In this document: one piece after another, positions 45,591-55,597 of the stretch
Position numbering within the stretch: position 1 is the stretch's first letter
Layout of the letters: each line of letters begins with the position of its first letter
Origin: Cnuella takakiae
Lineage (GTDB): Bacteria > Bacteroidota > Bacteroidia > Chitinophagales > Chitinophagaceae
Length of the DNA: 64,000 nt
NCBI RefSeq assembly: GCF_001953305.1
Contig: NZ_MTFE01000010.1
Span: forward strand, 3,263,776 to 3,327,775
Direction of reading: 5' to 3'
The notes under the pieces: generated by a model
Told to the model about the DNA's origin: nothing
The model's input: only the letters and a program-made list of their open reading frames with translations
The model's database searches: none
Program-made: the position numbers and the translations under genes

Positions 45591-47507
45591 TTATTCCTGC
45601 CGTACCAGCACTACCCTGCTGCGGTCGGCTTTATATACGGCATCCCAAAACTGCACCAGCTCAGGACCTTCAGTTGCGGGCACCCTAATTGCAAAGCGTT
45701 CTACTTTCCTGCTAAACTGCAGTTTGTTACCCGCCAATTGCACTGCAAATTGGTAAGTTCCGTATTTAGTATGCAAGGTCACCGGCTTGGGCATGGCTTC
45801 GGGCATGTACCCTTCGGGCAGTACCAGCTCCAGGCTATCCTCGTCGTGGTATGGATCATCAAAAACATAATCACAGGTACGGCTGGTATCCATGCTCATT
45901 TTCATTGTGCTTTGCGCCAGCAGGTTTGGTTGTATAAATATGCGTTTGCCACTGATGGTTGCAAAACGGGGAATATCGAGGTCCAGCACTTCATCCACTT
46001 CCGGAAGGCTGCCATGTTTTTGTTGGTAACTGAAGGCCGTTACCTCGTAAGATGGCAGGTCATATTCTTTATTTAGTTCTTCGATCACTTTTTGTTTATC
46101 CGGGTTCCGGGCCAGGGTCCTTTTTTCATCCTGCTGTATACCAGTATAGCGTGTATTGATCTTGAGTGTGAGGTTACCTTCTTTATCCAAACTCCCTTTC
46201 ATTGACCTGAGCAAGAGGTTTTCGGCAAGGCCATACACGGGTGTAGGCACCAGTTTGCCCCCCTCTGGTGTAATGAGCAGGGCTTTACGGTTGCCCGTGA
46301 AATTGCTCATATAACCGGGTTCTTCTGTTTGGCTGGTACATTCCAGCCAGATGGTATCCTTGCCGTTGGGTACGCATAAAACGGCGTGGTTGAACTGGAA
46401 AGCCGGAAAATCTTCCATGATGCGGTGTGCATCGCGGCTACCCCCTGCTTTTACCAAGGCAAAGTGGGAGGTAATTCCAGCTTCCTTGAGCAGGCTATAC
46501 ATATAATTGGATAGTGCCTTACAATCTCCATATCGGTTCTTTGATACATAGGCTGCATCAAAAGGTTGCCAACCGCCAACACCTATCTGCACACTGATAT
46601 AACGGGTGTTATTTTGCAGGTACCGGTATAGAGCAACAACCTGCTCCTGCTCACTTTTTGATTCTTTGCAGATCTCCTGCACCTGCAGTTTTACCTGTTC
46701 GGGTAACAGGTCCTTGCCAGCGTTGAGCTGGTGTTGAAAGCGCCCTAACTCCTGCCAGCTTTCCATGTTTCCTTCATAGCCCGCTACCTGGAAAATGGTT
46801 GGACCTATAAATACAACCGGCACCAACTCATACCAGGGCGGTGCTGCATAAGGCCTTATTACCGGTGCCTTTTGCTTTACCTCCCATTGGGTAATTTGAC
46901 GTCCATTTTCCTGCCTGGTAGTGGGCGGCATGGATTGGTTATAAGTCTTAGTGCGCAGGGCATAACCAACAGGGTGCACCAGGGTAAACCTGCTTTCTTC
47001 TACGGCTACACCTTCTGCCTCCTGGGGTGTCCAGGGTTCGAAATAAAAGGTATGGTTGAAACGAATGACCACTTCGTAAGCAACAGTGTAAGGGTACTGG
47101 TGATAATCGAAGCTGTGGCGCTTTACCCGGCTGTCTTCGTATATACTGCTATTAGAAATGGCACTAACATCCTTTACATCTTTATTCCTAAAGGTTCTTA
47201 TTTCCTTTCCGCTGGCATCCAGCAGGCGGCCTTCTATGCTTTTTACCTGGCGCAAACCATCATAGGACTCTTCCAGTTCGGCCAAGGCTGCCCCCTCTTC
47301 GTCCAGCACCGTATAAACGTATTTCTTGTGCAAAACCGTTTCTTTCGGGCTAATGATTTCAAAACGGATATCCTCCATCCTTTTTACCAGGTGGGCATTT
47401 TCTTTTAATGCAGGGGCAATGGTACTGGTGGGATATTCGCCGGCCTGTGCCGCCATGCAAACAAGGAGCGCTAACAACACCTGTGCGCTTAAAAATAAGT
47501 TCCTCAT
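45591..47507 (-). CDS. DUF3857 transglutaminase-like protein, paralogue A
   Basis: The 638-residue protein has a signal peptide (CMAAQAG). DUF3857 occupies about 45-240, a transglutaminase-like core about 260-400 and a beta-sandwich DUF3858 to the end. The core has NRYGDCKALSNYM with catalytic Cys near residue 325 and FNHAVLCV with the His near 373; the third position lies in WLECTS, where the usual Asp reads Glu. These genes are characteristic of Bacteroidota and are thought to be periplasmic, cleaving or crosslinking peptides. It overlaps the next gene by 4 bp (ATGA), so the two are translationally coupled. Confidence 0.9.
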   Translation of the reverse strand: MRNLFLSAQVLLALLVCMAAQAGEYPTSTIAPALKENAHLVKRMEDIRFEIISPKETVLHKKYVYTVLDEEGAALAELEESYDGLRQVKSIEGRLLDASGKEIRTFRNKDVKDVSAISNSSIYEDSRVKRHSFDYHQYPYTVAYEVVIRFNHTFYFEPWTPQEAEGVAVEESRFTLVHPVGYALRTKTYNQSMPPTTRQENGRQITQWEVKQKAPVIRPYAAPPWYELVPVVFIGPTIFQVAGYEGNMESWQELGRFQHQLNAGKDLLPEQVKLQVQEICKESKSEQEQVVALYRYLQNNTRYISVQIGVGGWQPFDAAYVSKNRYGDCKALSNYMYSLLKEAGITSHFALVKAGGSRDAHRIMEDFPAFQFNHAVLCVPNGKDTIWLECTSQTEEPGYMSNFTGNRKALLITPEGGKLVPTPVYGLAENLLLRSMKGSLDKEGNLTLKINTRYTGIQQDEKRTLARNPDKQKVIEELNKEYDLPSYEVTAFSYQQKHGSLPEVDEVLDLDIPRFATISGKRIFIQPNLLAQSTMKMSMDTSRTCDYVFDDPYHDEDSLELVLPEGYMPEAMPKPVTLHTKYGTYQFAVQLAGNKLQFSRKVERFAIRVPATEGPELVQFWDAVYKADRSRVVLVRQE

Positions 47508-49501
47508 TTGGCTGCTTTTTTAAATACCAGTTGCTCGCTTTGTTTGGCAACAACATGTTTGAAAAACTCCCGGAGCATATCATATTCATCAGGGGAAAAC
47601 CAGGTGCGTTTTATTTTGAGCACCATCTGCATGCTGACAACATTATTGGAGTAAGAAATCAAGTAATCTAGCGTCGCATCCCTGTCTTCGTTCATAGCCA
47701 TTCTTATTTGCTTGGGCATTTCATCCAGCACATACCCTTCCGGAACGGTGATGTTGGCTGTGTAGGTTTTCTCAAATGCATAGGGCATTTCAACAGGATA
47801 GGAACGGGAGGCCGCTTTAAAAGGATTTTCAAAATACCGGTCACTAAATAAAGGATTGACATACAGGATATCCTCACCGTTCATCTTCAGGTCGAACTCA
47901 CATTTGTATAACAAAACTGCATCCTTGTTGTCCAGCGAGTCAATCGTGATTTTATTGATTGTTGCTACCGATTCAAAATCAGTCTGCAATTCCTTTTCAA
48001 AAGCTTTTCTGCCCTTATCACTAATGGTTTCCCGGATGTTGAGCGACTGGTAGTATCCGGGGGCCTGTTGCAGCATGCCAACCCATTTACCACCCACATT
48101 GTTCAGGGCTACATAAGTCAGTTTGCGCTCCAGCAAAGAGTCGGGGGAAAGCTCCAGGGCCGTGCCTAAGCCATCAAGCTGCCGGGCCGCTCCATTGTAG
48201 CAATACGAAGGCATCCTGCCAAAACTTAAATGAGGCAGGGTGGCATCCAGCAAGGTTTCTTTTTCACCAAGCCTGGCCTTTGCTACCACATAATTGTATT
48301 TGCTCAATTGCGGGTAAACTACATTGGCCAACCCGTTATCCCTTGTGCTTAAGATTACGGGGTTGGCCTCCAGGCCAGCATGTCGCATCAGGGTAACAAG
48401 TAAAAGGTTAAGTTCGCAAACATTGCCCTTCCCGGTTTTTACCACGTTGCGCAAGCTTTGTTCTGCAAAAAGAGCCCGCCTGTCGGTACAGGTGAAATGA
48501 TCCCTTACATAAGCAAAGATTTTTTGTGCCTGCTCCTGCTGGCTGGTCGTACCATCAAGGATTGGTTTTAAAATATCATCCAGCCAACCGTTGTTGGCAT
48601 TTACCAATTTGCCAAAATCATCACGCTCCATGAGGTTTTTACTTACCGTAGGCCAATCGTTCAATATGGACTGGTGGCTTAAAGGTTCGCGGTAACCCGA
48701 CAGCTGAAATTCAATCTTGGCAATATGATTTTCGAGCGTTGAGGTAAAATTTTCGTCCTTCAGTACGCCTACCTCTTTCATTACCCAACGGTATTCGCTT
48801 ACGCCTGCACTGAAGGATTGTCTTTTAGAATCTATCCCATTGGATGTAACAGAAAAGAAGTCCACCCTGTCTTTTTTTTCTTTTATATGAAAGGGCACAT
48901 ATCCCTGTGCAAAAAACAGGTAGTCCATGAACTGCGGTACCGCAAACTGGTATTCACTCCAGAGCCTTGGTATACTTCCCTGGAACTCCCAGGGCATCAG
49001 AGAAAAATAGAAGTCGGAAAGAATGGTATATTCATATTCCACAATAGATCCTTCCTTAACGGCTGGTGCAGTAAAACGAACACGTTTCCGGTTTTTGTCT
49101 ACCTGCTCTTCAAACACCTGGGATTTCTCCAGTTTGGTTTCTACCACCTTGCCATCTTCCAAATTATAGGTAGCACACTTCAGGTTTTGTAAACTGGTTT
49201 CACCGTCGTTGTCTTTGTACAGGGCAACCATTTCCTTGGCGTGGTCATAACCATCTTTTTTTAAGATATGTACCCTGCGCCTGTGGGTGTGGCGCATACT
49301 AAACCATCCTTTCTGGTTGCCTTCAATTTCGGTGCGGCCGTGATCAAATAAAATCACAGCACCCGCGCTGCTATCTACGGAATAGGCTTTAGCGGCAAAG
49401 GTGAGCGGATCGATTTTTCCAAACTTCGTAATGGGGCTGTTCTGGGCTTTACTGGACAAAAGGCACGAGAATAATAAAAAGGTAGTAAGCAGGTTTCGCA
49501 T
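47504..49501 (-). CDS. DUF3857 transglutaminase-like protein, paralogue B
   Basis: The 665-residue protein has a signal peptide (LLSSKAQ) and shares the DUF3857-transglutaminase-DUF3858 plan of its neighbour. Its core has GNVCELNLLL with a Cys near residue 361 and LLDATLP for the Asp, but the segment that holds the catalytic His reads KYNYVVA, so His is replaced by Tyr. This Tyr form may be common in the subfamily. Loss of the His suggests a non-catalytic partner. It is the upstream gene of the two-gene operon. Confidence 0.88.
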   Translation of the reverse strand: MRNLLTTFLLFSCLLSSKAQNSPITKFGKIDPLTFAAKAYSVDSSAGAVILFDHGRTEIEGNQKGWFSMRHTHRRRVHILKKDGYDHAKEMVALYKDNDGETSLQNLKCATYNLEDGKVVETKLEKSQVFEEQVDKNRKRVRFTAPAVKEGSIVEYEYTILSDFYFSLMPWEFQGSIPRLWSEYQFAVPQFMDYLFFAQGYVPFHIKEKKDRVDFFSVTSNGIDSKRQSFSAGVSEYRWVMKEVGVLKDENFTSTLENHIAKIEFQLSGYREPLSHQSILNDWPTVSKNLMERDDFGKLVNANNGWLDDILKPILDGTTSQQEQAQKIFAYVRDHFTCTDRRALFAEQSLRNVVKTGKGNVCELNLLLVTLMRHAGLEANPVILSTRDNGLANVVYPQLSKYNYVVAKARLGEKETLLDATLPHLSFGRMPSYCYNGAARQLDGLGTALELSPDSLLERKLTYVALNNVGGKWVGMLQQAPGYYQSLNIRETISDKGRKAFEKELQTDFESVATINKITIDSLDNKDAVLLYKCEFDLKMNGEDILYVNPLFSDRYFENPFKAASRSYPVEMPYAFEKTYTANITVPEGYVLDEMPKQIRMAMNEDRDATLDYLISYSNNVVSMQMVLKIKRTWFSPDEYDMLREFFKHVVAKQSEQLVFKKAAK

Positions 49502-49664
49502 GCAGTGAGTTTTGTTAGTTAGTGGTCAGGGGATAATGATCAGCTTGCAAAATATTCCGTTTGTACAATCTTTCCTACATATGCTTTTAATTAGGAATGC
49601 ATGGGCAACAAACTGCAGAACTCCGTTAACAGTTTATTCGGCCAAATAGCTAGAACTTTGCGTT

Positions 49665-50627
49665 GTGAATAAGGCACTACAAACGCGGATGGTGAAAGAC
49701 CTGGCAAAGCAATATGGCTTTGACCAATGTGGTATTGCGCGTGCCCAGGTGTTGGATGAGGATGCCCGCCGGCTGGAGCGCTGGCTGCACCAGGGACTGC
49801 ATGGAGGAATGCAGTACATGGAAAATTATTTCGATCTCCGGATTGATCCAACCAAACTGGTTCCCGGCGCAAAGTCGGTGATCACGTTTCTGAAAAACTA
49901 CTACCCGCAGCAAACAGCGGAACACACAGCGACAAGGGTATCGAAGTATGCTTATGGCGTTGATTACCACACGGTAATTAAAAATGCATTGAAAGGCATG
50001 ATGGCCGAACTGCAAACGGCAGTTGGCCAGGTGGAAGGTCGTGGATTTGTGGACTCTGCACCGGTTCTGGAACGCAGCTGGGCACAACGTAGTGGCCTGG
50101 GCTGGCTGGGCAGAAACGGCAACCTCATTACCAAGGACAGCGGTTCCTTTTTCTTCATCGCTACCCTCATAGTGGACCTGGAATTGGAATACGACGACCC
50201 ATATGCCAAGGACTTTTGCGGGTCTTGTCGTAAATGTATTGATGCCTGTCCTACACAGGCCATTGGTCCGGATAAAGTAATCAATGGCAGCCAGTGTATC
50301 TCTTATTTCACCATTGAGTTGAAAGATGCGCTTATCCCCGAAGAGCAAAAAGGCCGTTTTCAAAACTGGATGTTTGGTTGCGATACCTGCCAGGATGTTT
50401 GCCCCTGGAACCGCTTCAGCAAGCCACACCAGGAAGCACAGTTCAACCCCATCCCGGAAATCCTCAATTTCACCACCCGCGACTGGGAAGCCCTGAGCGA
50501 AGAGGCTTTCCGGAAAATATTTAAGCAAAGCCCCATGAGCCGCGCCAAATGGAAAGGCATTCAACGGAATGTAAAATTCCTTCAGGACGAAAAGACCCTT
50601 ATACTTTCCAATGAAAAGGAAGGATAA
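49665..50627 (+). CDS. queG: Epoxyqueuosine reductase
   Basis: The 320-residue protein carries out the last step of queuosine tRNA modification, reducing epoxyqueuosine with cobalamin and Fe-S clusters. Two ferredoxin-type clusters are visible: CGSCRKCIDACPT and CDTCQDVCPW. The N-terminal cobalamin domain has SVITFLKNYYP, GYGVDYH-like YGVDYHTVIK and GRGFVDSAPVLERSWAQRSGLGW. The C-terminal HEAT-repeat extension of the E. coli enzyme is absent, as in many short forms. The start is GTG at 49665; ATG at 49689 is an alternative. Monocistronic, oriented divergently from the transglutaminase genes. Confidence 0.96.
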   Translation: MNKALQTRMVKDLAKQYGFDQCGIARAQVLDEDARRLERWLHQGLHGGMQYMENYFDLRIDPTKLVPGAKSVITFLKNYYPQQTAEHTATRVSKYAYGVDYHTVIKNALKGMMAELQTAVGQVEGRGFVDSAPVLERSWAQRSGLGWLGRNGNLITKDSGSFFFIATLIVDLELEYDDPYAKDFCGSCRKCIDACPTQAIGPDKVINGSQCISYFTIELKDALIPEEQKGRFQNWMFGCDTCQDVCPWNRFSKPHQEAQFNPIPEILNFTTRDWEALSEEAFRKIFKQSPMSRAKWKGIQRNVKFLQDEKTLILSNEKEG

Positions 50628-50684
50628 CTCATTTGGAACGGAACTCCCTTATTTTATTCCCATCGTTTTTCGTAGCTATGCACC

Positions 50685-51179
50685 ATGGGTGTAGAGATAG
50701 AAAGGAAGTACCTCGTCAACAAAGCTATTTGGAACAATACCGATAAAGGCGCCGGCGAGTTGTACAGCCAGGGCTATATGCTTACCACACCTGAAAAGAC
50801 CATCCGGGTAAGGCTAACTGAAACAGGAGGGTTCTTAACCATAAAAGGCATTTCCGTGGGTGCCAGCCGCGCAGAATACGAATATGGTATTCCACAAACA
50901 GAAGCCAGCGAATTGCTGGCTGATTTTTGTTCCGGTGTAATAGAAAAGCGGCGCTACAAACTGGTGTATGCAGGCATGGTTTGGGAAGTGGATGAATTTA
51001 TGGGAGCCAACGAAGGACTGGTGTTAGCAGAAATAGAACTTCCTGATGCAGACAGCATTTTTAGTCTTCCCCCCTGGATTGGTGTTGAGGTAACCGGTCA
51101 ATTGCCTTACTACAATTCCTATATCTCGGAGCATCCCTATTCAACCTGGCCTGACCAGGAAAAAAATCCTACAATTTAA
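50685..51179 (+). CDS. CYTH domain protein (inorganic triphosphatase-like)
   Basis: The 164-residue protein has the CYTH signature EIERKYLV at the N-terminus (ExExK) and the alternating beta strands with basic residues expected of the tunnel: TIRVRLTE, GFLTIKG, EKRRYKLVYAG, VWEVDEFMG, LVLAEIELP. It probably hydrolyses triphosphates such as PPPi or acts on thiamine triphosphate-like substrates; cyclase activity is rare in this size class. It overlaps the converging OM-protein gene by 11 bp. Confidence 0.9.
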   Translation: MGVEIERKYLVNKAIWNNTDKGAGELYSQGYMLTTPEKTIRVRLTETGGFLTIKGISVGASRAEYEYGIPQTEASELLADFCSGVIEKRRYKLVYAGMVWEVDEFMGANEGLVLAEIELPDADSIFSLPPWIGVEVTGQLPYYNSYISEHPYSTWPDQEKNPTI

Positions 51180-51735
51180 TACCAGCCTTGAGCGAAATTC
51201 TCCGGTAAATGTATTTGTACGCAGTGTGGTAACCCGGGCAAGGTGCACGTACACATTGCACATCCATGTTTTCTTCCCATCCATAAGTTTTCCCGGAGTA
51301 ACCCAGGCTGAATACAGGACCGGCAGCCCTTTTTCCTTTGAATTGGTATTGCAAACCTGCATCCCAGTACCAGCCGTTTTGCTCCGTAGCATATGCTCGT
51401 TGCAGGCTTTGCTCCGGCCAGGTAAAGCTGCGGCCACCATCGAGGTATACAGAAAAGCTGCGGTCCAAAACGGGTAAGCCATATTGCGCCTGTACAAATA
51501 CCGGCACACTCCTGACGCCATATTTATCGATACCGGTACCCAGGCCTAATTGCCAGGGCCCAACAGCAATGCCGTTTACTGTTTGCACCTGGAAGGCCAA
51601 GCCTGCCTGCCCTTCCAAAAGGCCAATTTGGGTAACAGAGGAAAAGGAAATTTTATGCTGCCTTGCCAGGCTGCTGTCCTGTGCCTGCAACCAAACGAAA
51701 GGAAAAAGTAAAAGCAAAAGAATAAAAAGACGCAT
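51169..51735 (-). CDS. Small outer-membrane beta-barrel protein
   Basis: The 188-residue protein has a signal peptide (LFPFVWLQAQ) and alternating amphipathic strands typical of an 8-strand barrel (LAFQVQTVNGIAVGPWQLGLG, FVQAQYGLP, FSVYLDGGRSF, WYWDAGLQYQF). Loop segment DVQCVRAPCPGYH has two Cys four residues apart, likely a disulfide on an exposed loop. It follows the LVIVD lipoprotein gene by 5 bp and is the last gene of the sigma-factor block. No named family recognised. Confidence 0.75.
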   Translation of the reverse strand: MRLFILLLLLFPFVWLQAQDSSLARQHKISFSSVTQIGLLEGQAGLAFQVQTVNGIAVGPWQLGLGTGIDKYGVRSVPVFVQAQYGLPVLDRSFSVYLDGGRSFTWPEQSLQRAYATEQNGWYWDAGLQYQFKGKRAAGPVFSLGYSGKTYGWEENMDVQCVRAPCPGYHTAYKYIYRRISLKAGIKL

Positions 51736-51740
51736 AGCAG

Positions 51741-53009
51741 TTAGTTGAGGTTGATTTTGCTGATTTGTTTGATTGCCTGCAGGTTGCTGTAATCAAACTG
51801 GAATATGCCCTGGTCGGATACAACCAGCGCGATTTTATCCTGTGCAATGACATCGTAAGTAGTACCCAAGCCGCCAATAGTTTGAACTAGTTTAGGGTCC
51901 CGCTCGTCCTGCACATCAAAAATTTTAAGCCCTGCCAAACCATCGCAAACAAAAAGCCTGTTGCCATCTTTTGAAAGGCCATGCGGGTTTTGCAAGGCGA
52001 TGGTTTTTACCAAGAAAGGCGTTTGCAGGTTGTTGATATTGATTACATCCATTTGGTTGGAAGTGCCACCGCACATGGTACCGCCAGAACGTAGGGTTAC
52101 ATAGGCCGTAAAACCATCAGCAATTACAGGATCGCAACTGCGTACATGGCTAAAGGCACCCTGCCTTGCGGGGGTGGCTGGATTGCCCAGGTCAAAAATA
52201 AACATGCCGGTATTGGAACCTACAAACAACTTGTTCTGAAATGGATATATGGTTTCAATGCCCCACCCCAGGTTCTGGGTACTACTTTTAACCGGGTTGA
52301 GCGGATCGGTAACCTGGAAGGCCGAAAGTTCGGATTGTGTAACGGTATAGAGGTAATCATTCACCATTGTAAAGCGCGCCATGGAGCCCCCTACTCCATT
52401 CACTGGTGCTGCAGCTGCCGCATTTACAAAAACAGGACGGCCACCTGCATCAGCAACCATGCAATTGGGGCAACGCGACCATGTAGTATAAGTGGCGCAA
52501 TCAACAATAGTGTCGCGCTCCACGTAATCAACGATCACCTGAACCGAGTCGGGGTTGGTTTGATTACCCCAGGAAACAAAGCCGTCGTTGAAAACTTTAT
52601 TGCGGAACGTCACTGGCTTTGCCTCTGTCCAGTTACTGACCGGTATAACGGCCAGGTCGCTGTACGAATCAGCGTAGAGCACATTGTTGCGGATGGCAAT
52701 ATCTACATTGCCCAAGATATTGATAAACCCAAGTTTCCGCGGGCTTGCAGGATTGGTATTGTCAAATACATGAATGCCCTTCCACAGTTCGTTTACGAGC
52801 AGGTAAGCACCATACTGGTATATTTTGCCGGGCCGTTCCATCTTGCGGGCTTGCGTAAAACCCATCTCCTTACGCACCGAGCTAAGGCTTTTGTAAACGG
52901 GTTGGTAAATGGTGAACTTGTTGCGGCATTCATCTTTTAAACAACTGGTGAAAAGCAAGGGAAAGCAGAGCAGCACCAGTAGCTGTACAGGGTTTACACG
53001 GGTGGGCAT
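51741..53009 (-). CDS. LVIVD-repeat lipoprotein
   Basis: Starting at MPTRVNPVQLL, the product has 422 residues. The signal ends in LLFTSC, a lipobox. The mature part is a beta-propeller-like array of LVIVD repeats: IHVFDNTNPASPRKLGFINILG, LSAFQVTDPLNPVKSS, MFIFDLGNPATPARQGAF, MDVININNLQTPFLVKTI and LKIFDVQDERDPKLVQTI. Two Cys pairs (DCATYTTWSRCPNC and SCDPV/GGTMCGG) may form disulfides. LVIVD proteins are surface or periplasmic in Bacteroidota, function unknown. The gene lies 91 bp after the barrel-fusion gene in the same direction. Confidence 0.88.
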   Translation of the reverse strand: MPTRVNPVQLLVLLCFPLLFTSCLKDECRNKFTIYQPVYKSLSSVRKEMGFTQARKMERPGKIYQYGAYLLVNELWKGIHVFDNTNPASPRKLGFINILGNVDIAIRNNVLYADSYSDLAVIPVSNWTEAKPVTFRNKVFNDGFVSWGNQTNPDSVQVIVDYVERDTIVDCATYTTWSRCPNCMVADAGGRPVFVNAAAAAPVNGVGGSMARFTMVNDYLYTVTQSELSAFQVTDPLNPVKSSTQNLGWGIETIYPFQNKLFVGSNTGMFIFDLGNPATPARQGAFSHVRSCDPVIADGFTAYVTLRSGGTMCGGTSNQMDVININNLQTPFLVKTIALQNPHGLSKDGNRLFVCDGLAGLKIFDVQDERDPKLVQTIGGLGTTYDVIAQDKIALVVSDQGIFQFDYSNLQAIKQISKINLN

Positions 53010-53100
53010 AAGCAGGAATTTAAAAGCTGACAAGTTGTGCAACCTTTCCGTTGCACGGCGGAGTGTAAAGAATCGAATACTTATAAAGGAGTAAAACAAA

Positions 53101-54408
53101 TTATTTAACCTGCAACTGTATACCGGCACCAAAGGATGCCAGATGGCGGTCATTGTATTTTCGGTTAGCCATTGGGGTAATATGGTAGCTGGCAAAAGGC
53201 CCGGCAAGCAACTCCCAATTTTTTGTCGCCCCTATCCTGTACTGCAGACCTGCATGTACTGGCAATTGCCATCTTTGTACAGCCGGCACTACTTCCCTGA
53301 AATAGGTTGTCCCCGGGAGATATTGCAAGGCTTTATTCCGGACCAGGTAACCCGGCGCTACTCCAGCCTGCACAGAAAGGGGAATACTCCGGACAGGTTT
53401 CAGTTCCAGGGCCAACGGAACACTGATCATTTGAAACTTGTTGTGGTAGGAACCCTGCCCGCCGTTGGCTTCGTACAATTCTATTGCGCGAAAGTTGGCA
53501 TTACTGCTGGCACTAACTAAAACCTTCCTGCCTACGGCAACCTTCTGGGTGTACAACGCATACTGCAGCCCTGCCGAACCTTTCAACCGGCTGCTTATAT
53601 TCTTTTTGAGAAGCACCCCTGCGGAAAGGAACGGTCCACCTGTGATATTTGCCTGCACATTGCCAAACACAGGATTATTGGAAGGTGATGGATCAGCAGC
53701 AAAATTGAGGCTTGCTGCACCTTGCATACCATCTGCACCCGCCCAGGAGCGGCCATATCTTAACTGAACAATCCATGCTAACCGGGTAAGTTGTTTCTCC
53801 ACTTTTTTAATAGCCACTGTTTTGAACAGTGCGCTATCCGGCTGGCGATTGCCTATTGAATAAAACCTTTCTGCCGGTAAGGAAGATATGGCTTCAAAAC
53901 TCTTATCGTTTTTTTCAATAGTCGATTCTAAACCCGCTGATTCAGAAAAAATATCCGTATTTGGTATAGCAGGTTCTATATTTAAAAATGCGATTTTGTT
54001 GGACAAATCACTGGATGATTTGCCCCGCATATATTTTGAATTTTCACCAACTTGAAACTCCTGATTGCTCGGCTGCCTGCCAGGATCATTTGTTTTAGCT
54101 GCACTGGTTTCAATTTGGTTTGCACGATTGCTTTCCTTCTTTGAGGTAATAGCATCTGCTGGCCGATTTATTTCCTTTTGCCTGGTATTGAGGCTTTCGT
54201 TTACCGATGTATTTCCCGCATTATACAACCATAGCACACCTGTAACACCCATTCCTACACCAAGGAAAGCAAGCCATAATACAATGCGCCGCTTTTTCCT
54301 GGGTGCACGAATCTTTGCCTCCACTTCCTCCCACACAGGTGGTGAAGGTGTGAAGGACAGCTCCTGCATTTTCTGCTGCACCGAGCGTTCAAATTCCTGA
54401 TCGTGCAT
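53101..54408 (-). CDS. Anti-sigma-like / single-TM / outer-membrane barrel fusion protein
   Basis: The 435-residue protein has a short cytoplasmic N-terminus with FTPSPPVWEEVEAKIR, a motif of the VW..VE..I type seen in anti-sigma or sigma-partner proteins, and a TM helix at about 41-62 (IVLWLAFLGVGMGVTGVLWLY). A long Ser/Asn/Glu-rich periplasmic linker (about 65-210) leads into a C-terminal beta-barrel domain (about 215-435: WIVQLRYGRSWAG, GPFLSAGVLLKKN, LKGSAGLQYALYTQ, LSVQAGVAPGYLV, ending in GAGIQLQVK). The gene overlaps the ECF sigma gene by 20 bp, so the two are coupled. The design suggests a link from the outer membrane to the sigma factor. Confidence 0.8.
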   Translation of the reverse strand: MHDQEFERSVQQKMQELSFTPSPPVWEEVEAKIRAPRKKRRIVLWLAFLGVGMGVTGVLWLYNAGNTSVNESLNTRQKEINRPADAITSKKESNRANQIETSAAKTNDPGRQPSNQEFQVGENSKYMRGKSSSDLSNKIAFLNIEPAIPNTDIFSESAGLESTIEKNDKSFEAISSLPAERFYSIGNRQPDSALFKTVAIKKVEKQLTRLAWIVQLRYGRSWAGADGMQGAASLNFAADPSPSNNPVFGNVQANITGGPFLSAGVLLKKNISSRLKGSAGLQYALYTQKVAVGRKVLVSASSNANFRAIELYEANGGQGSYHNKFQMISVPLALELKPVRSIPLSVQAGVAPGYLVRNKALQYLPGTTYFREVVPAVQRWQLPVHAGLQYRIGATKNWELLAGPFASYHITPMANRKYNDRHLASFGAGIQLQVK

Positions 54409-54955
54409 AGCTGCCTGGTTTATGGTCCAACATTTTTTTTTCGATCCAGGTTATAAGCAGGGCACGGGCACGGGCATACTGCGACCTCGATGTGCCTTCA
54501 TGTATACCCAACATCTGCCCGATCTCCACATGAGTGTATCCTTCCACTGCGTGCAAATTGAAAATGGTTTGGTAGCCAACCGGCAATTGCCTGATCAGTT
54601 CTGCAAGTTCTTTTGCCTGCAGGCTTACCTGTGGGTCATCGGTGCTTACGGGGTGCAGGTGGTCCGATTCAAATGCCAGCTCCGATTGGTAGCGTACATG
54701 TTTTTTCAGGTAGTTGAGTGCCGTTGTCACCATGATGCGCCGTATCCAGGCGCCCAGTTCACCTGAACCCTTGTATTGGCTTAAGTATCGGTACACTTTT
54801 ACAAAACCCTCCTGCAACACATCTTCTGCATCACCCATGGACTTGGTATACCGGTAACATACGCCCAACATGGGCCCGGCAAATCGGTCGTACAGCATTC
54901 GTTGGGCTGCCGGCCTATGTTTTAAACATTCCGCTACCAATTGGTGATCATCCAT
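54389..54955 (-). CDS. ECF-family RNA polymerase sigma factor
   Basis: The 188-residue sigma factor has region 2 (LYDRFAGPMLGVCYRYTKSMGDAEDVLQEGFVKVYRYLSQYKGSGELGAWIRRIMVTTALNYL) and region 4 (LIRQLPVGYQTIFNLHAVEGYTHVEIGQMLGIHEGTSRSQYARARALL) with the Gly-rich HTH turn. No region 3, so it is of the extracytoplasmic type. It is the first gene of the block; the overlapping downstream gene is probably its membrane partner. Autoregulation is usual but no upstream consensus could be defined. Confidence 0.94.
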   Translation of the reverse strand: MDDHQLVAECLKHRPAAQRMLYDRFAGPMLGVCYRYTKSMGDAEDVLQEGFVKVYRYLSQYKGSGELGAWIRRIMVTTALNYLKKHVRYQSELAFESDHLHPVSTDDPQVSLQAKELAELIRQLPVGYQTIFNLHAVEGYTHVEIGQMLGIHEGTSRSQYARARALLITWIEKKMLDHKPGSYARSGI

Positions 54956-55030
54956 ACAGCCCGGGGGTTAATGGGCTGACAATGGTTAGTTGCATATCGT
55001 TGCAGGCTGCCGTAAAAAAACATGAAAAAA

Positions 55031-55495
55031 TTAGGGTGCCTGCTGCTGGCCTGCTTTGAGGTTGCGCAATCCCTGCTCCATCATGCGGCCATAAGTGCCT
55101 TCATAAAAAAGACTGCTGAAGCGGTGCCAGGGCAAAGGGGAAAGCTTGAAATCCATATACCATTGCAGCGTAAGCGAGTCGGCAGCACCAAATCGGTGCA
55201 GCTCCCAGCCATTGGAAACGGATTTGCCCGAGGCATGGGTTATATCCATAATCACCACTGAATCGTTTTGGGTACGCAGGGAAACTTTTTGTTTTGCAGG
55301 ACTGCCATTGGCATATGCAGGGTGCCAGCTGGGCCACATTGCCGTATCCCGCACTTTTTTCAAAATAGCCGTATCATTTGGCGCAAAATTGATGGCTTTG
55401 GAAATGCGCACCTCCGAAGGCACGAGCTGCGCCATGAGGAAAAAGAGCACACCAAAAAATAAAAATGATAGCAGGGCCAGTTTGATGATACGCAT
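55031..55495 (-). CDS. SRPBCC-type protein with N-terminal membrane helix
   Basis: The 154-residue protein (start MRIIKLA) has one membrane helix (about 4-24) followed by a START/polyketide-cyclase-like fold: ISKAINFAPNDTAILKKVRDTAMWPSWHP, VSLRTQNDSVVIMDITHASGKSVSNGWELHRF and SLTLQWYMDFKLSPLPWHRFSSLFYEG are the strand and helix pattern of the family. The predicted pocket may bind a hydrophobic ligand in the periplasm or at the membrane. It lies between the ABC permease gene and the ECF sigma gene on the same strand, with gaps of 102 and 75 bp. Confidence 0.8.
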   Translation of the reverse strand: MRIIKLALLSFLFFGVLFFLMAQLVPSEVRISKAINFAPNDTAILKKVRDTAMWPSWHPAYANGSPAKQKVSLRTQNDSVVIMDITHASGKSVSNGWELHRFGAADSLTLQWYMDFKLSPLPWHRFSSLFYEGTYGRMMEQGLRNLKAGQQQAP

Positions 55496-55597
55496 ATGCA
55501 AAGAAATAAAAACCGCTTTTAACCCTGTTGGACAGGAAGAGGGTTTGATAAAATGTGTGCATCCGATAACCTTAGCAAAGCTAAAGAGCATCTGCCC

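Follow-up and report, generated by a model that had tools for sequence, protein, structure and literature searches.

A module of four genes on the minus strand of a 64,000-nucleotide stretch of Cnuella takakiae DNA (contig NZ_MTFE01000010.1, positions 3,263,776 to 3,327,775; hereafter the window, in whose own numbering coordinates are given unless a locus is named) encodes an extracytoplasmic function (ECF) sigma factor, a fusion protein with a predicted dual-membrane-spanning anti-sigma (Dma) architecture, an LVIVD-type β-propeller lipoprotein and a small eight-strand outer-membrane barrel. The sigma and fusion genes overlap, the four-gene arrangement and the predicted domain layout of the fusion are conserved among relatives, and the same promoter-like box precedes both the sigma and the propeller gene. 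The module thus probably represents an ECF pathway of the Dma type, under its own control and governing a regulon of surface lipoproteins as well.

The ECF sigma factor and its fusion partner

The sigma factor gene (54389-54955) codes for a protein of 188 amino acids with Pfam matches to Sigma70_r2 (e-value: 7.3e-16) and Sigma70_r4_2 (e-value: 2e-14). Its product shares 35-75% amino acid identity with 30 aligned sigma factors from relatives, 27 of which derive from the same cassette while three adjoin a fusion gene without a propeller. The last 20 bases of this gene (54389-54408) are shared with the fusion gene (53101-54408; 435 amino acids), an overlap that is a usual sign of coupled translation. 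An earlier model-made reading of the window, based on the letters and open reading frames alone (the sequence-only reading), had placed four open reading frames on this strand and noted the overlap of the first two, and all of these were recovered.

The same reading had proposed that the fusion comprises a partner-like N-terminus, one inner-membrane helix, a linker and a barrel, an order borne out by the AlphaFold2 model, hydropathy, Foldseek comparison and the OMP_b-brl_2 matches of family members. The predicted cytoplasmic sigma-binding segment (residues 1-33; 54310-54408) contains the motif P-S-x-x-V-W and modelled helices, and W26 is invariant in the 39 aligned fusion sequences. It is followed by a predicted inner-membrane helix (residues ~41-64; 54217-54288), where hydropathy reaches its maximum (2.05, from residue 42), with the residues RKKRR in front of it. 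The net charge before the helix is positive in 38 of the 39 rows and zero in the remaining one, and by the positive-inside rule the N-terminus is predicted to lie inside the cell. A disordered stretch (residues 65-208; 53785-54216), the putative periplasmic tether, measures 137-252 residues across the 39 rows (median: 173), and leads into the predicted C-terminal outer-membrane β-barrel (residues 209-435; 53104-53784).

The AlphaFold2 model, built from the 39 sequences (mean predicted local distance difference test (pLDDT) score: 71.8; predicted template-modelling score (pTM): 0.55), comprises helices at residues 3-16 and 23-64, an unstructured region at 66-189 (pLDDT <50) and barrel strands at 210-434. 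In ten-residue blocks the pLDDT of the barrel is 42-67 for residues 221-250 and 81-98 from residue 251 onwards. Foldseek matched the barrel to small outer-membrane barrels (e-value: 4e-6 to 1e-4), with the first ten matches being a Legionella porin associated with a type IV secretion system, OmpW, OmpA, NspA and Ail, and OmpX following after these. When normalised by the query, the template-modelling (TM) scores of these matches come out low (0.2-0.3), since tether and helix make up half of the chain. Taken alone, the fusion protein shows a weak Pfam match to OMP_b-brl_2 (e-value: 0.0018; Bitscore: 18.8), below the 27-bit cut-off of that family, and it is among the 26 of 39 aligned members which match the family at an e-value of 0.01 or less. 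Searches against NCBIfam gave no informative match for the fusion, the propeller or the small barrel, and a profile of the fusion found no meaningful relative among the sequences of solved structures.

The sequence-only reading had also considered that the fusion may be a normal outer-membrane protein whose signal, unusually, stays uncleaved, in which case its position after an ECF gene would be incidental. The C-terminal part is indeed a common small barrel fold. However, roughly 40 hydrophilic residues precede the helix, the charge and tether length described above are retained across the aligned members, and the gene shares 20 bases with that of the sigma factor. Furthermore, a sigma-fusion pair stands close to 79 of 125 propeller loci (see below), and elsewhere in the same genome an ECF gene is clearly paired with a fusion gene at least once more, with a second, weaker case besides. 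As such, this explanation is highly improbable.

Another explanation is that a single chain is made but routinely cut, with the barrel being freed as an ordinary outer-membrane protein and the N-terminal anti-sigma domain and its stump remaining in the inner membrane, so that signalling would proceed through regulated proteolysis of the site-1/site-2 type rather than through an intact bridge. Proteolysis controls the anti-sigma factors of other envelope-sensing ECF pathways, and a long disordered tether would be an easy protease target. Against this, inspection of the consensus by eye revealed no conserved motif for cleavage beyond the helix, and the tether comprises at least 137 residues in all 39 rows, as expected if it spans the periplasm. 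We regard this explanation as a whole as somewhat unlikely, and retain as the best reading of the predicted layout the suggestion of the sequence-only reading that one chain replaces the FecR/FecA relay.

The surface proteins and the conservation of the module

The propeller gene (51741-53009) codes for a lipoprotein of 422 amino acids. While the open reading frame finder placed its start at a TTG codon (53207), the ATG at 53009 is the most likely start, given that the aligned homologues begin there and that a promoter-like box lies 46 bases before it; this start provides a signal peptide and the lipobox LFTSC. Matches to PF08309 (LVIVD) were found in 50 of the 52 aligned members of the family (best e-value: 1.1e-20). 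The window protein, which shares 34-54% amino acid identity with the 51 others, is one of the two without a match at a threshold of 0.01. The description of this protein as an LVIVD lipoprotein in the sequence-only reading thus holds for the family, but the window protein itself lacks the domain match. One stretch of the propeller weakly matches haloalkylphosphorus hydrolases among the sequences of solved structures (e-value: 3e-4). A simple rule recognises a lipobox in 48/52 aligned propellers, and the predicted mature N-terminus of the window protein, C-L-K-D-E, fits the optimal surface-export signal published for Capnocytophaga, C-X-K-(D/E)2-X (PMC5080379). The shorter motif C-x-[KR]-[DE] is found at the mature start of 32/52 propellers and the full C-x-[KR]-[DE][DE] in just two, and the propeller lipoprotein is therefore likely, rather than certain, to be exposed at the surface.

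The last gene of the module (51169-51735) encodes a protein of 188 amino acids with a signal peptide, which lacks a Pfam match. Its AlphaFold2 model (pLDDT: 91) shows eight long strands, and Foldseek relates it to OmpA and OmpW (e-value: 2e-4 to 6e-4; TM-score: 0.33-0.52).

In single-sequence searches of 118 genomes, including that of C. takakiae, the fusion was found in 44 genomes and the propeller in 59. A search for the same fusion elsewhere had been proposed with the sequence-only reading, and in a separate profile search at a threshold of 1e-5 the fusion returned matches, many of them partial, in 41 of the 148 genomes of a phylum sample. The propeller is far better conserved than either the fusion, which shares 14-27% amino acid identity with the 38 others in its alignment, or the small barrel (17-37% identity with 40 others).

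Gene order was compared across 125 distinct propeller loci, comprising the window, 52 loci from relatives (L088-L139) and 72 named loci (from L251-L330). These remained after 60 stretches from relatives and 80 named loci had been fetched and eight duplicates removed among 133 loci; the named loci, taken as the top 80 among 586 confirmed ones, lean to close relatives. A pair of sigma and Dma-type fusion genes is located within 6 kb of the propeller gene at 79/125 loci, directly upstream at 61, upstream with a gap at 11 and downstream at seven, while a homologue of the small barrel gene lies within 3 kb of the propeller gene at 108/125. The four-gene arrangement thus recurs far beyond chance, and since the same four genes occur in more than one order, it argues for a functional bond and not just an inherited neighbourhood. 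The proposal of the sequence-only reading that the lipoprotein and small barrel complete a surface module is strongly backed by this conservation, together with the shared promoter-like boxes.

One of the 11 loci with a gap (L093) counts as such only on account of a tandem duplication, which has left two copies of the propeller and barrel genes after the sigma and fusion genes. The other ten come from records labelled Dyadobacter, Larkinella, Rudanella, Spirosoma, Fibrella and, in one case, Flavobacterium; another record labelled Flavobacterium (L312) has the adjacent order. Two of the gap loci were tested, and both encode a serpin lipoprotein (PF00079; e-values: ~1e-103 and ~1e-108) between the fusion and propeller genes. 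The serpin genes in these Cytophagales (L296:4585-5814 and L314:4106-5344) place a protease inhibitor inside the module.

Eight further loci with split or distant propeller homologues and no adjoining sigma-Dma pair (L140-L147) were left out of the counts. In several of these relatives the propeller homologue is split into two neighbouring genes coding for ~170-205 and ~247-279 amino acids, and two of the eight loci (L140 and L146) keep a TGCAAC-N18-GTC box upstream. The module in the window is adjoined by a QueG epoxyqueuosine reductase gene on the plus strand and a gene encoding a secreted protein of 665 amino acids (47504-50627), and neighbours resembling these two in size and ending recur beside the module in several loci of the same genus.

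Promoter-like boxes and the candidate regulon

Two copies of the sequence TGCAAC-N18-GTCAGC are located in the module, both in the orientation of its genes. The first (54975-55004) lies 49 bases upstream of the start of the sigma gene, and the second (53026-53055), 46 bases before the propeller start, sits in the 91 bases that separate the fusion gene from the propeller gene. These are the only copies in the 64-kb window, where 0.01 would be expected, and none of 100 shuffled versions contained two. With one position relaxed (TGCAAC-N18-GTCNGC), four copies occur in the 5.7-Mb genome, two of which are the module boxes, compared with one for the reversed control.

Among the 72 loci with the pair upstream of the propeller gene, the shorter pattern CAAC-N18-GTC precedes the sigma gene at 65, the propeller gene at 57 and both at 56, while it is found in 63 of 2,500 random windows (2.5%). 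This pattern was picked after the boxes of Cytophagales had been seen, and the figures of 65/72 and 57/72 are thus partly fitted. The earlier pattern TGCAAC-N18-GTC was present before the sigma gene at 48/72 loci, before the propeller gene at 29 of the 61 loci with an adjacent pair and in 25/2,500 random windows. In the upstream regions of 15 mostly Cytophagales loci the boxes keep the spacing but read TTCCAAC or TTACAAC, and patterns with the TGCAAC hexamer missed most Cytophagales. At 52 of 56 loci both boxes have the same base before CAAC, compared with a shuffled mean of 35.4; as lineages share their base, this agreement is supporting and not independent evidence.

The genome of C. takakiae yields 27 Sigma70_r4_2 matches (22 of them above the family cut-off), and CAAC-N18-GTC lies upstream of the module sigma gene only. 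With one of the 27 genes carrying it, the box is not a general ECF promoter in this genome, and we infer from these observations that the module sigma factor reads both boxes.

A longer form of the box, TGCAACG-N15-TTGTC, occurs in 55 exact copies in 18 genomes of the same genus, that of C. takakiae included, compared with six for the reversed control. Of these sites, 22 precede sigma or propeller genes (two in the window and one at a contig edge). A simple rule identifies a lipoprotein start 33-150 bases downstream of 18 of the other 33 sites, while the corresponding value for random positions is 2.6%. The distance is 36-58 bases at 17 of these 18, much like that of the sigma and propeller boxes. 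For one of the 18, in the C. takakiae genome, the product of the downstream gene (663 amino acids) carries a CHU_C type IX secretion signal and is better described as secreted than as a lipoprotein. When up to one mismatch is allowed, the C. takakiae genome contains 39 sites versus 23 for the reversed control. Thirty of the 39 were read, six of which precede a lipoprotein gene by the rule, with two of these looking spurious. Candidate targets were chosen by eye, and include an FKBP-type isomerase lipoprotein, a lipoprotein of 151 amino acids, a protein of 113 amino acids with a weak match to DUF3630 and a secreted protein of 295 amino acids. The site in front of the 113-amino-acid protein is retained with up to one mismatch at 6/16 loci, two of which are discovery loci, while 3/170 random windows contain such a site. 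This protein (G000:C1:4458661-4458999; L179/L373) is present in 16 of the 18 same-genus genomes. At a further locus (L220; G009:C13:591649) an exact box lies 64 bases before the start of a gene which, judged by eye, encodes an RpoD-like housekeeping sigma factor, and this may be a matter of chance.

Two more loci of the C. takakiae genome match the fusion profile. A full-length match (e-value: 7e-36; G000:C1:4470876-4472201) adjoins an ECF locus (L072), and a barrel-only match (e-value: 1e-9; 2195981-2196574) falls in a 434-amino-acid protein adjoining another (L064). Neither of these ECF loci has a CAAC-N18-GTC box. On these profile matches, Dma-type control looks multiplied in this genome.

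The proposed pathway and related systems

The RseA/RseB-sigmaE system combines an inner-membrane anti-sigma factor, which has a cytoplasmic N-terminus and a soluble periplasmic domain, with an envelope output. The module resembles it in its predicted inner-membrane anti-sigma factor with a cytoplasmic N-terminus, and an FKBP-type isomerase lipoprotein is among the predicted targets here. The fusion differs, however, in ending in a predicted outer-membrane barrel rather than in a soluble periplasmic domain. With the FecA/FecR/FecI system it would share the control of an ECF sigma factor by a surface event across two membranes, yet there separate proteins do what a single chain is predicted to do here. 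A FecR/FecA relay was considered for the window and rejected, as no TonB-dependent receptor or FecR was detected with Pfam among the seven window open reading frames scanned (49665-55591), and the predicted barrel is part of the putative anti-sigma chain itself.

The one-chain architecture itself is already known as Dma in B. thetaiotaomicron (PMC13088901, citing PNAS 2024 e2321910121). As described there, Dma has an N-terminal sigma-binding domain, a helix, a disordered tether and a C-terminal barrel, with an ECF sigma factor adjoining. Removal of dma2 raises the expression of its own sigma gene, das2, and of neighbouring genes and gives a vesicle phenotype that requires das2, removal of dma1 induces nigD1, and the paper leaves the mechanism of Dma2 open. 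The window fusion resembles this description in its N-terminal region, single helix, long disordered tether, barrel, adjoining ECF sigma gene and small operon. The B. thetaiotaomicron proteins come, however, from a different class of Bacteroidota, and the promoter boxes of the window are known from comparison alone. A conserved surface module with a paired promoter did not turn up in the literature searched, which did not extend to the original Dma paper, and may nevertheless have been published.

Because of the shared layout and the effects of dma removal reported for B. thetaiotaomicron (PMC13088901), the same logic is proposed here. By analogy with Dma1 and Dma2, the fusion would bind and repress the sigma factor, with its short N-terminal helical domain holding the latter against the cytoplasmic side of the inner membrane. 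The tether would cross the periplasm and the small barrel in the outer membrane would end the chain, provided that the two-membrane topology stays intact. Something happening at the cell surface or in the outer membrane could then free the sigma factor, either by proteolysis or by a conformational change, without a separate FecR/FecA relay. Once freed, the sigma factor would recognise xCAAC-N18-GTC and amplify its own operon, while the second copy of the promoter would switch on the propeller lipoprotein and the small barrel. Further, largely small lipoproteins encoded elsewhere in the genome may also be induced.

Several observations weigh against this proposal. With ~33 residues the N-terminal domain is short, it matches no anti-sigma family model in Pfam or NCBIfam, and the likeness of the fusion to Dma1-3 is one of architecture as described in the cited source. 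No sigma-Dma pair occurs within 6 kb at 46 of the 125 propeller loci, although 12 of these have less than 4.2 kb of upstream sequence. The box is still present at 13 of the 46, and the propeller and barrel can therefore exist without an adjacent pair. Where the pair lies downstream of the propeller gene (seven loci), a box precedes the sigma gene in none and the propeller gene in one. Among the extra sites in the genus, 15/33 do not precede a flagged lipoprotein gene. The single target assignments in C. takakiae, being chosen by eye, are uncertain, and the FKBP site is weakly conserved, being found with up to one mismatch at five of the 18 best loci (43 matches), three of which are discovery loci, compared with 3/170 random windows. 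Lastly, a TonB-dependent receptor gene and a SusD-like gene are located directly upstream of the sigma gene, in the same direction, at one locus of a relative (L089:9501-13172). A receptor may contribute in such relatives, although no FecR-like protein was seen. The place of this receptor pair is occupied by other genes in the window. By eye, several other same-genus loci carry genes of similar size and ending at the position of the L089 pair.

The role of the two surface proteins may be viewed in two ways. They may be outputs of the sigma factor only, with no part in sensing, an explanation towards which the evidence leans slightly. The propeller gene has its own promoter-like box, boxes across the genus precede other lipoprotein-like genes, and a propeller and small barrel without a pair within 6 kb are found at 37/125 loci. 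However, the surface genes are linked more tightly to the pair (79/125 loci, seven in the other order) than are the other presumed targets, and such linkage would fit a physical partner or a feedback ligand. A broader extension of the proposed Dma-type pathway, which we offer as speculative and unlikely in its entirety, is that it is widely conserved in Bacteroidota and watches the state of the surface lipoproteins and outer membrane. The surface propeller would dock on the barrel of the Dma chain, or else on the neighbouring small barrel, and act there as a ligand or as a brake by feedback. Once released, the sigma factor would read xCAAC-N18-GTC to renew the propeller, the barrel, the isomerase lipoprotein of FKBP type and further lipoproteins of the surface, perhaps including the serpin in Cytophagales. 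This would make the pathway the counterpart in Bacteroidota of the sigmaE response, run by one chain across two membranes.

On the questions of what Dma senses and which genes it controls directly, the module offers a candidate physical partner, the propeller with the small barrel, and a concrete promoter, xCAAC-N18-GTC, which it contains twice. Together these make the pathway testable in environmental Bacteroidota. Dma-type control appears to extend well beyond the gut Bacteroides to a mostly environmental group, and to the known architecture is added a conserved set of surface proteins which appears to share the control sequence of the fusion operon.

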